Assembly (NCBI GenBank): GCA_028285165.1
Contig: JANQQB010000276.1
Span: 1-32,899, forward strand
From: Rhodobiaceae bacterium
GTDB taxonomy: Bacteria; Pseudomonadota; Alphaproteobacteria; Rhizobiales; JANQQB01
Length of the DNA: 32,899 nt
Direction of reading: 5' to 3'
In this document: positions 2,447 to 9,586 of the stretch, one piece after another
Layout: the number at the start of each line of letters is the position of its first letter
How positions within the stretch are numbered: position 1 is the first letter of the stretch
Position numbers and translations under genes: made by a program
Notes under the pieces: generated by a model
The model's input: the letters and a program-made list of their open reading frames with translations, nothing else
Databases searched by the model: none
Told to the model about the DNA's origin: nothing

Positions 2447-3121
2447 ATGAGTGATTTTGCGCTTTTCGGCGTCAATACGGCCAACCCGCAGACCGCTACG
2501 TCAGCATCGAGCGACAATTCCGAACTGGCCAGCGATTTCGATACGTTCCTGACGCTGCTCACGACGCAACTGGAAAACCAGTTGCCGACCGATCCCCTGG
2601 ATTCCAACCAGTTCACCGAGCAGTTGGTGCAATATTCCACGGTGGAACAGCAGATCAAATCGAATGAGCACCTGGAGAGCATTCTGGGCGCGTTGTCGAC
2701 CGCAAATGTTGCGAGCCTGGCCAGCTATATCGGAACCGAGGTCGCGGCTTCCGGCGAGACCACCCAGCTCGTCAACGGCGAAGCGACCTGGGCGTTCGAT
2801 GCCGCCAGCCCGGCAGCGGAAGCCACGATCCGCATTCGCGACGCATCCGGCAACGTGGTTTACAACGAAGTGAGGTCGCTGGAGAGCGGCAAGGGGTCGT
2901 TCGTCTGGGATGGACGCAGCGATACCGGAGTTCAGATGCCGGACGGCTTCTATACGATTTCGATCAACGCCCAGAACCAGGGCCGGCCGGTCAATGTGTC
3001 GACCAACGCTGTGGAAGGCCTTGTGACGGCGATCGACACAACCGGGACCGAACCGACGCTGACCGTGGACGGCCAGCGCGTGCCGCTGTCGGCCGTCAGT
3101 TCGATCAAGGGCGCGAGCTGA
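2447..3121 (+). CDS. flgD: Flagellar hook assembly (capping) protein FlgD
   Basis: DFDTFLTLLTTQLENQLPTDPLDSNQFTEQLVQYSTVEQQIKSNEHLESI and FlgD Ig-like region (GSFVWDGRSDTGVQMPDGFYTISINAQ). Confidence 0.95.
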   Translation: MSDFALFGVNTANPQTATSASSDNSELASDFDTFLTLLTTQLENQLPTDPLDSNQFTEQLVQYSTVEQQIKSNEHLESILGALSTANVASLASYIGTEVAASGETTQLVNGEATWAFDAASPAAEATIRIRDASGNVVYNEVRSLESGKGSFVWDGRSDTGVQMPDGFYTISINAQNQGRPVNVSTNAVEGLVTAIDTTGTEPTLTVDGQRVPLSAVSSIKGAS

Positions 3122-3222
3122 TCGATCCCTGCTGCCTCCGGGCTAGTACCTCTGAGCAGAAGTCCTGACGCGTTTGATGGTGAAGATTTTCCCTTTGGCT
3201 AGGCGCGTTGTGCAGCGCGATC

Positions 3223-3246
3223 GCAACGGCGATGTTTCGCCGTTGC
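3223..3246. repeat. Hairpin H1
   Basis: GCAACGGCGA-TGTT-TCGCCGTTGC, 10 bp perfect stem. Confidence 0.9.
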
Positions 3247-3256
3247 CCTTTCCTGA

Positions 3257-3280
3257 TCAAATCGGAAACATCCGATTTGA
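3257..3280. repeat. Hairpin H2
   Basis: TCAAATCGGA-AACA-TCCGATTTGA, 10 bp perfect stem. Confidence 0.9.
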
Positions 3281-3330
3281 CGCGCATCGGGCAAACAACG
3301 CAACGACGTCCAAAGGGCAAATGTTCCCCA

Positions 3331-3356
3331 CCAAACACGGATGTTTCCGTGTTTGG
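3331..3356. repeat. Hairpin H3
   Basis: CCAAACACGGA-TGTT-TCCGTGTTTGG, 11 bp perfect stem. Confidence 0.9.
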
Positions 3357-3367
3357 CAGCTAAAGTA

Positions 3368-3395
3368 GCGCAAGTCGGAAACATCCGACTTGCGC
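3368..3395. repeat. Hairpin H4
   Basis: GCGCAAGTCGGA-AACA-TCCGACTTGCGC, 12 bp perfect stem. Confidence 0.9.
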
Positions 3396-3438
3396 GGCCG
3401 TCTTTCCCTGGCCTTCGGACGTCGTTGCGATCATTTCA

Positions 3439-3454
3439 TGGTGCTACAGCACCA
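3439..3454. repeat. Short hairpin H5 near the right arm of the element
   Basis: TGGTGC-TACA-GCACCA. Confidence 0.6.
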
Positions 3455-3572
3455 CATCAATGACCGCGCCTAGCCGAAGACCAGGAAAAGTCGGTCAAAC
3501 GGGTCAGGATTTCTGCTCAGAGGTACTAGCTGGCGAGGCAACTCAAAGTGTTACCGAGAGATTGATTACGGT

Positions 3573-3639: not shown

Positions 3640-3915
3640 ATGACCGAGAGTATTCGACCACGCGTAAAATATGTGATCGGACCGGACGGCAGTCCGTTGA
3701 CGGTCGCTGATCTGCCGCCGCCGACGACGCGGCGCTGGGTGATCCGCAGAAAGGCCGAGGTGGTGGCGGCCGTGCGCGGTGGACTTCTGTCGCTTGACGA
3801 AGCCTGCCAGCGTTACACACTGACTGTCGAGGAGTTTCTTTCCTGGCAAGCTTCGATCGACAACCACGGCCTTGCCGGCCTGCGCACGACGCGTATCCAG
3901 CAATATCGCGGGTGA
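3640..3915 (+). CDS. sciP: CtrA inhibitor SciP (DUF1153 family)
   Basis: VKYVIGPDGSPLTVADLPPPTTRRWVIRRKAEVVAAVRGGLLSLDEACQRYTLTVEEFLSWQ, characteristic SciP/DUF1153 sequence. Confidence 0.92.
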   Translation: MTESIRPRVKYVIGPDGSPLTVADLPPPTTRRWVIRRKAEVVAAVRGGLLSLDEACQRYTLTVEEFLSWQASIDNHGLAGLRTTRIQQYRG

Positions 3916-4299: not shown

Positions 4300-5973
4300 G
4301 TGAAAGGGTTTTTCGAATTCTTGCGATCTCTCGGCCCTGCCCGTCTGGGCGCCATGGGGGCGGTCGCGGCGATCATGGTGGGGTTTCTGGCCTTCATCAC
4401 GCTGCGTATTTCCGCCGATACCATGGCGCCCCTTTACACCGATCTCACGTTTGACGATTCGGCCGCGATCGTCAGTGAACTGGAAGCCCGCAACATCCCT
4501 TATCAGACCCGCCGCGACGGATCGGCCATTCTCGTGCCGAGCGACGACGTGCTGCGGCTGCGGTTCCAATTGGCCGAACAGGGCCTGCCGACCGGCGGCT
4601 CGGTCGGCTACGAAATTTTCGACAAGACCGATACGCTCGGGGCGACGAATTTCGTTCAGAATATCAACCATCTGCGGGCGCTGGAAGGCGAGTTGACGCG
4701 AACCATCCGGGCAATCGACCGGGTCGTCGCCGCCCGGGTCCACCTGGTTATCCCGGAGCGGGAATTGTTCCGGCGCGAACGCAAGGAACCGAGCGCGTCG
4801 ATCGTCGTCAAATCGCGCGGCGCACTGGATTCCAGCCAGATCAAGGCGATCCAGCACCTTGTGGCGACCGCCGTCGAAGGTCTCGACCCGCGCCGGGTCT
4901 CCATCGTCGACGAAACCGGGCGCTTATTGGCGAGCGGCGTGGCGATCGACAGTCCGGGCGGCGTCGCGGGCGATTCAGATGAGCGAAACCTCGCCTTCGA
5001 GACCCGGCTGAAACGCGAGATTGAAGAGATCCTGACCAGCGTGGTCGGCCCCGGTCGGGCACGGGTGGAGATCTCCGCCGAACTCGACTTCAACCGCATC
5101 ACTGAGACATCGGAAGAATTCGACCCCGAAGGCCAGGTTGTGCGCTCGACCCAGACGCGGGAGGAAACGTCATCGAGCTCGGAAGACGAGGACGGCGTGA
5201 CCGCGGGCAACCAATTGCCGAACGCCGACCAGCAGGGTGCCGACGGCGGTCCTTCCAATCAGCAGGCCAGTTCCTCGACCGAGGAAATCGTCAATTACGA
5301 GGTCTCCAAGACCACCAAGACGCAAGTTCTGGAAGCCGGCCGGATCAAGCGTCTGTCCGTCGCCGTCCTGGTCGACGGTGTCTACACTCCCGATGCCCAG
5401 GGCAATTTGGGCTACCAGCCCCGGCCGGCAGAGGAAATGGACCGCATCGCCGCGCTGGTGCGTTCCGCGGTCGGTTTCGACCAGACCCGCGGCGACATCG
5501 TCGAAGTGGTCAATCTGCGGTTCGCCGAGCGCCCGGACCTGCTTGCCGGATCGGAAGACGGCCCCGGTCTGTTCGACTTCACCAAGGCCGACATCATGCA
5601 ATTGATCGAGCTGGGCGTGACGCTGTTGCTCGGCCTTCTGGTGCTTCTGTTCGCTGTTCGCCCGCTGTTGAAGCGGGTGTTTGCCGAAAGTGATCCGGCG
5701 CCGGCGATTGCAGCGGAGGGAACGCCGGCGCTGAACGCCGACGGAACACCCGCGCTCGAAGGTCCGTCTGCGGAGGAGACCGAGGGCGCGCTTACGATGG
5801 CCGAAAAGGCGGCCGCCAGCGAAAGCGTCGTGGCAAATCTGGAATGGATCGAAAAGGCCAAGGCGGACGGGGCCGTCCAGTTGAAGACCATCCAACACGT
5901 GTCGGACCTGATCGAGGAATATCCGAATGATGCCGTGGCTCTGGTGCGCAGCTGGCTGCAGGAGGCTGCCTGA
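4300..5973 (+). CDS. fliF: Flagellar M-ring protein FliF (GTG start)
   Basis: [100 protein letters not shown]. Confidence 0.97.
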
Positions 5974-8215: not shown

Positions 8216-9586
8216 ATGCGCCTCCTTATCGTGGGTGTCCTGGACGGACAATTGTCGACGGCGACCAAGATCGCCATGGACCGCGGGGCCTCCGTCACCC
8301 ATGCGGAGACGATCGACAACGCGCTGGCGTCGCTGCGCTCGGGGCGGGGCGCCGATCTTCTGATGGCCGATGTCGCCCTGGAAATCGGCGACCTCGTGAC
8401 CCGGCTCGGCGACGAACACATCCATGTGCCGATCGTCGCCTGCGGTACCAAGACCGATGCCGCCGCGGCGGTGCGGGCGATCCGCGCCGGGGCGAAGGAA
8501 TATGTGCCGCTGCCGCCGGATCCGGAAATCATCGGGGCCGTGCTTGCCGCCGTTGCCCAGGAAAGCCTCGACTTCATCGTGCGCGATGACGCGATGCGGT
8601 CGGTCGTGGAGCTTGCCGAGCAGGTGGCGCGGTCGGATGCCTCGATCCTGATCACCGGGGAATCCGGAACCGGCAAGGAAGTGCTGGCCAAACATGTGCA
8701 CAGCAAGTCGAACCGGGCAAAAAAGCCCTTCATCTCCGTCAATTGCGCGGCAATCCCGGAAAACCTCCTGGAATCGGAATTGTTCGGGCACGAAAAGGGC
8801 GCCTTTACCGGTGCGATCGCGCGGCGCATCGGCAAATTCGAAGAAGCGACCGGCGGCACGCTTCTGCTCGATGAGATCTCCGAGATAGATGTGCGCCTGC
8901 AGGCCAAGCTCTTGCGCGCCATCCAGGAACGCGTGATCGATCGGGTCGGCGGATCGAAGCCGGTGCCCGTCGACATCCGCATCATCGCCACCTCGAACCG
9001 CAACCTTGCCGATGCGGTCCGGGCCGGAACGTTTCGCGAGGATCTGCTTTATCGGCTGAACGTGGTCAACCTCAAGATCCCGGCGCTGCGCGATCGTCCG
9101 GCCGACATCCTGGCGCTCGCCCGGCATTTCGCCTTCCGGTATGCCGAAGCGAATGGCCTGGAGGCCAAGGACCTTACCGCCGATGCCGAAGCGCACCTGT
9201 CGTCGAGCCCCTGGCCCGGCAACGTGCGGGAGCTGGAAAACACCCTGCATCGCGCGGTGCTGCTCGCCACCGGACCGCAGATCGATATCGACGCGATCCG
9301 GACCCCGGACGGCGCGATGATCGGCATGGCCGCGTCCGGTCCGGAGGCCCGGGCGGCGATGACGGCCGAAACGGTCAGCCGGGCCTTTGTCGGGCGGACC
9401 GTGGCCGACGTGGAACGGGACCTGATCATGGACACGCTCGACCACTGCCTCGGCAACCGCACCCATGCCGCCCGGATCCTCGGCATTTCCATCCGCACGC
9501 TGCGCAACAAGCTGAACCAGTATTCCGATGACGGATTACCGATCCCCGGACCTGGCGAAGTTCGACCCGCGATGACGGCTGGCTGA
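8216..9586 (+). CDS. flbD: Sigma-54-dependent flagellar regulator FlbD
   Basis: AAA+ sigma-54 activator motifs GESGTGKEV, ESELFGHEKGAFTGA, GGTLLLDEISEI and Fis-type HTH (NRTHAARILGISIRTLRNKLNQY) downstream of fliN. Confidence 0.92.
   Translation: MRLLIVGVLDGQLSTATKIAMDRGASVTHAETIDNALASLRSGRGADLLMADVALEIGDLVTRLGDEHIHVPIVACGTKTDAAAAVRAIRAGAKEYVPLPPDPEIIGAVLAAVAQESLDFIVRDDAMRSVVELAEQVARSDASILITGESGTGKEVLAKHVHSKSNRAKKPFISVNCAAIPENLLESELFGHEKGAFTGAIARRIGKFEEATGGTLLLDEISEIDVRLQAKLLRAIQERVIDRVGGSKPVPVDIRIIATSNRNLADAVRAGTFREDLLYRLNVVNLKIPALRDRPADILALARHFAFRYAEANGLEAKDLTADAEAHLSSSPWPGNVRELENTLHRAVLLATGPQIDIDAIRTPDGAMIGMAASGPEARAAMTAETVSRAFVGRTVADVERDLIMDTLDHCLGNRTHAARILGISIRTLRNKLNQYSDDGLPIPGPGEVRPAMTAG

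Follow-up and report, generated by a model that had tools for sequence, protein, structure and literature searches.

The locus and its enclosing element

The window (the whole 32,899-nucleotide stretch analysed, from a draft genome of a Rhodobiaceae bacterium) contains four hairpins, H1-H4, within a flagellar cluster, with flgD (2447-3121) on one side and a DUF1153 gene (3640-3915) on the other (Table 1). A preliminary description, made from the letters alone, had reported perfect stems with the loops TGTT, AACA, TGTT and AACA, gaps of 10 bp between H1 and H2 and 11 bp between H3 and H4, and a compensatory change between H2 and H4; each of these observations was confirmed. No other perfect hairpins with a 4-nt loop and arms of at least 10 bp were present in the 32.9-kb window, and simulating the window 30 times with a first-order Markov model produced none. 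The proposal that the unit is a duplicated hairpin dimer was likewise borne out, H1-H2 and H3-H4 being two copies of one module, here called the twin hairpin. The extent originally given, 3223-3395, covers the core of the structure and misses the 381-bp MITE-like element, with its TA flanks, that encloses it.

Table 1. Features of the MITE-like element and its hairpins (positions in the window)
Feature	Positions	Strand	Remarks
Whole MITE-like element, 381 bp	3146-3526	.	Terminal inverted repeats about 32 bp; TA on both sides; two inverted long arms
TA, left flank	3144-3145	.	Context CTAG; presumed target duplication, shared by most complete copies
Left terminal inverted repeat	3146-3177	+	GTACCTCTGAGCAG...; 94% complementary; in other copies
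Left long arm	3197-3311	+	Conserved GGCTAGGCGCG (3197-3207) ... CGCAACGACGTCC (3299-3311)
Twin hairpin 1 (H1-H2)	3222-3281	.	Apical loop of left arm; covariance model 52.8 bits, E 7.3e-12
H1	3223-3246	.	Perfect stem; loop TGTT 3233-3236
H2	3257-3280	.	Perfect stem; loop AACA 3267-3270
Twin hairpin 2 (H3-H4)	3331-3394	.	Between arms; covariance model 75.4 / 75.1 bits by strand
H3	3331-3356	.	Perfect stem; loop TGTT 3342-3345
H4	3368-3395	.	Perfect stem; loop AACA 3380-3383
Right long arm	3417-3475	-	Inverted copy: GGACGTCGTTGCG (3417-3429) ... CGCGCCTAGCC (3465-3475)
Right terminal inverted repeat	3495-3526	-	
TA, right flank	3527-3528	.	

The limits of the element rest on reading its ends as TA/GTACCTCTGAGCAG ... 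CTGCTCAGAGGTAC/TA. An inverted repeat of 36 nt, 94% complementary (3142-3177 and 3495-3530), encloses H1-H4. Inside it, the two arms are related and inverted, with 79% identity between 3142-3207 and the opposite strand of 3465-3530. Folded as a single RNA strand, the element gave -235 kcal/mol, with z about -20. Each long arm keeps the asymmetric pair GGCTAGGCGCG / CGCAACGACGTCC, which would form a conserved internal loop and is also present in other subfamilies whose termini differ; this internal loop is possibly a second protein site.

Further copies, envisaged in the preliminary description, were found in the same genome: BLAST returned tens of related loci, and CGGAAACATCCG had 68 matches (34 per strand) versus one for the reversed control. 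Most complete copies have TA at both ends, an exception being L008, with TC at one end. Neither hairpin pair is present in L004, L008 and L009, only H3-H4 in L002 and L003, and H1-H2 without H3-H4 in L026 and L027; further, one interior was found with the unrelated termini GTACCTCTGAGCAG, GAGCATTGTGTGATTAGA and ATACCAACGGTG. Because the pairs are present or absent independently among the copies, and because the same interior occurs under unrelated termini, the hairpin pairs behave as modules. Many copies are terminal on their contigs (C460, C466, C91, C121, C19 and others); the elements thus break up the draft assembly, and their copy number is a lower bound. At two loci, L080 and L093 (1491-1530 in each), TA-flanked remnants of about 20 bp are left, the two terminal repeat tips having fused with loss of the entire interior.

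Like MITEs with a TA target duplication (IS630- or IS5-type), the window element has terminal inverted repeats, flanking TA dinucleotides that are presumably a target duplication, many copies with discrete ends and no coding sequence, and it is probably mobile DNA. Unlike typical TA MITEs, it has a nested interior, in which two inverted arms are combined with up to two twin hairpins, depending on the copy. The element was probably moved by a TA-targeting transposase of the IS630 or IS5 type. A parent transposase with the same ends was not found in the draft genome, where DDE_3 was absent and DUF4096 had no usable match, a weak negative because the assembly is incomplete. A degenerate IS5-type transposase match (DUF4096, with one internal TGA) lies at L259 (G000:C290), without matching terminal repeats. 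The whole element had no match in the plasmid and phage collections.

Geometry and covariation of the twin hairpin

The twin hairpin consists of an 11-bp stem with a 4-nt loop, a spacer of 10-14 nt and a second such hairpin. Its stem and spacing properties were derived from 106 dimers, with 168 distinct hairpins, selected only on TGTT...AACA loops with the adjoining GG/CC. Because the loci were fetched by the loop pattern, the frequencies of the loops carry a bias from which polarity, stem length and any pairing outside the pattern are free. Across the 168 hairpins, stem positions 1-10 were Watson-Crick paired in 94-100% of cases, position 11 in 83% and position 12 in 23%, a drop that sets a sharp stem limit at 11 bp. 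Bases at positions 1, 6, 9 and 10 are freely exchanged with pairing kept (position 9 was paired in 164 of 168 hairpins, while the best of 500 shuffles reached 92), and sequence conservation at positions 2-4 and 8 spans 23 genera. The distance from loop to loop is 34-40 bp, with a mode of 36. In 18 genomes the order TGTT then AACA was found in 77 pairs, and the reverse order in none. The excess covariation that the preliminary description had proposed to look for was found in 39 diverged dimers, which scored 0.602. Shuffling lowered the score to 0.156 (sd 0.013), the best slid control reached 0.129, and double changes were present in 17 of the 22 base pairs.

In a scan of 18 genomes with a common stem held constant and any loop allowed (N3-12), the matches listed had mostly 4-nt loops, TGTT/AACA being the most frequent. 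Variants included TACA, TAGA, TAAA, TGCA and AAAA, and the loop-closing pairs were A-T, G-C or C-G. Kissing of the TGTT and AACA loops is at most a possibility as the conserved feature and gained no support, several variant loop pairs being non-complementary and most others being one change from TGTT/AACA. In the Rhodobiaceae MAG G048 (L061, L065, L069, L075), the loop of some like hairpins is TATA; such hairpins stand alone or are paired with others whose loops are TGTT/AACA.

The arms of palindromes are corrected against each other during replication, and the perfect stems may be kept by such templated correction instead of by recognition. The module would then be a passive fossil: a single ancestral nested palindrome would have been amplified together with its host repeats, quasi-palindrome correction alone would have kept the stems perfect, and no recognition would take place now. 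Arm-against-arm correction is a known process, and the failure to find a partner protein fits this reading; however, correction could not yield the near-constant loops, the perfect polarity, the sharp 11-bp limit or the 34-40 bp loop spacing, and it leaves unexplained the conserved stem positions 2-4 and 8. We consider a passive origin improbable.

We also considered that the module might be an RNA element transcribed in 3' untranslated regions, which would act as an mRNA stabiliser, a terminator or a decoy and offer its two hairpins to an RNA-binding protein. Such an element would be consistent with the strong RNA fold, with the scarcity of intergenic copies between divergent genes (4 of 49, versus a background of 43 of 198, with crude gene calls for both), and with the observation that REPs, as described, often lie 3' of genes and are transcribed (PMC3733652). 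However, G.T and A.C mismatches were equally rare in the 168 hairpins, at about 1% each, and so give no sign of one strand being RNA; further, both strands score alike with the covariance model, there is no T-run, and no Rfam 15 family reached the gathering score in the window or in the modules at 19 further loci (the 'Rhizobiales-1' candidate, PMC2864571, has no model there). An RNA element is thus a rather unlikely explanation. A hairpin-ribozyme match in Rfam, with E 0.55, was taken as chance.

Distribution and carrier repeats

A covariance model, with H3-H4 of the window in its training set and H1-H2 left out, matched in 48 of 398 sampled Hyphomicrobiales genomes, representing 23 of 141 genera. 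Over the class, 3 of 395 genomes matched, two from Hyphomicrobiales and one from outside the order, the latter with a weak, degenerate match. Scanning 85,488 species genomes for the pattern yielded 66 stretches, of which almost all came from named Hyphomicrobiales (Microvirga, Stappia, Hongsoonwoonella, Chelatococcus, Hansschlegelia, Azorhizobium, Bosea and Tepidamorphus) or from alphaproteobacterial MAGs. A match in Thermodesulfovibrionia (L177), with stems of 4-5 bp, was taken as chance.

The module was found within several unrelated dispersed repeats, i.e., REP-like pairs, CTCTCCC palindromes and MITEs. By a simple classifier, CTCYCC..GGRGAG repeats surround the module in 40 of 103 cases, and hairpins like CGTCATGCCCGGGCTTGACCCGGGCATCCA fall in a class of 17; other palindromes also occur. 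Outer stems of at least 7 bp were present around 41% of modules, versus 0.7% with shuffled flanks. Dispersed units that contain the module have sharp limits and unrelated flanks. In G312 these units are about 205 bp long, compared with 190 bp in Microvirga and 93-119 bp in the MAG AP_16. When folded, the G312 unit has its twin hairpin between two large hairpins, comparable to the succession of arm, H3/H4 and arm in the window. The surroundings of the G312 cluster and of an IMG/VR contig gave no candidate for a gene regularly flanked by twin hairpins. L190, an IMG/VR contig classed as viral, has two twin hairpins (5329-5382 and 8223-8274), 2.9 kb apart and inverted.

With a probability of roughly 60%, we read the window's element as a non-autonomous mobile palindrome, MITE-like, and the module as the conserved core of several palindromic repeat families, read as folded DNA. 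On this reading, H1-H2 and H3-H4 are copies of one twin hairpin, the structured core around which unrelated dispersed palindromic repeats are built in Hyphomicrobiales. The equal rates of G.T and A.C, the equal strand scores, the near-constant loops and the constant spacing suggest that the module would act as folded DNA, either single-stranded or cruciform. A trans-acting factor may read the hairpins as an inverted pair set about 36 bp apart, which would support propagation or maintenance of the carrier palindrome.

Relation to REP families

Like the GTAG REPs, REPINs and BIMEs associated with RAYTs, twin hairpins are inverted hairpin pairs dispersed between genes; unlike them, they have neither the GTAG tag nor an association with RAYTs. 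The likeness to paired REPs or BIMEs drawn in the preliminary description holds as a general resemblance (inverted pairs, many copies) and breaks down at the GTAG and CGTC tags and at the RAYT link. The GTAG tag was found at 0 of 40 outer feet; CGTC was found at 0 of 40 outer feet and in 2 of 40 on the inner side, in a count confined to the tetranucleotide CGTC itself. The module lacks the tag and the stem length of both REP superfamilies. Mobilisation by a RAYT, as of a REPIN or BIME, had been suggested at the outset; it would suit inverted, intergenic hairpin pairs in many copies per genome, and the genome of the window has two Y1 matches. However, Y1 matches were absent from 13 of 18 positive genomes, including the single-contig G234 and G312, both with many copies, and no twin hairpin was found near the fetched Y1 genes. 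Together with the missing tags, these results count against the proposed link: RAYT mobilisation is very improbable, and a Y1/RAYT transposase as a requirement for the module is largely refuted.

The closest known relatives of the twin hairpin are the CGTC REPs, alphaproteobacterial repeats that form head-to-head dimers with structured spacers and have no dedicated transposase (Di Nocera 2013, PMC3733652). They are recognised by a CGTC tag (also TGTC, CCTC) with a CCA tail, a stem of 8-9 bp and a loop of 4-5 (PMC3733652). The twin hairpin is likewise alphaproteobacterial, made of inverted hairpin pairs and without a dedicated transposase; unlike CGTC REPs, it has no CGTC tag and seemingly no CCA tail, its stem is 11 bp rather than 8-9 bp (with a loop of 4), its loops and polarity are near-fixed, and its outer repeats are unrelated to one another. 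CGTC REPs also have stem-loops in the spacer, and the spacers of the A. tumefaciens CGTC-3 dimers hold two (PMC3733652). The twin hairpin may generalise these spacers, which is the main doubt about its novelty. In A. variabilis GTAG-15 and H. neapolitanus CGTC-1 (PMC3733652), REP dimers lie inside long palindromes, and the twin hairpin is nested likewise; those families have one host palindrome each, whereas the twin hairpin is in several unrelated families, order-wide. We found no description of the twin-hairpin module in the open-access literature, subscription papers being outside the scope of the search.

We tentatively raise the possibility of an undescribed recognition module that is order-wide: the twin hairpin would enter unrelated palindromic repeats, or be common to them, and an enzyme other than Y1 would read it as folded DNA. 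If true, such reading would give bacteria without RAYTs a second way of spreading REP-like repeats. The strict geometry common to unrelated repeat families provides a defined 64-bp probe for the responsible protein or process. The alphaproteobacterial CGTC REPs were described without a dedicated transposase (PMC3733652), and the twin-hairpin probe makes that question directly testable. Some twin hairpins are flanked on both sides by CGTC-REP-like hairpins.
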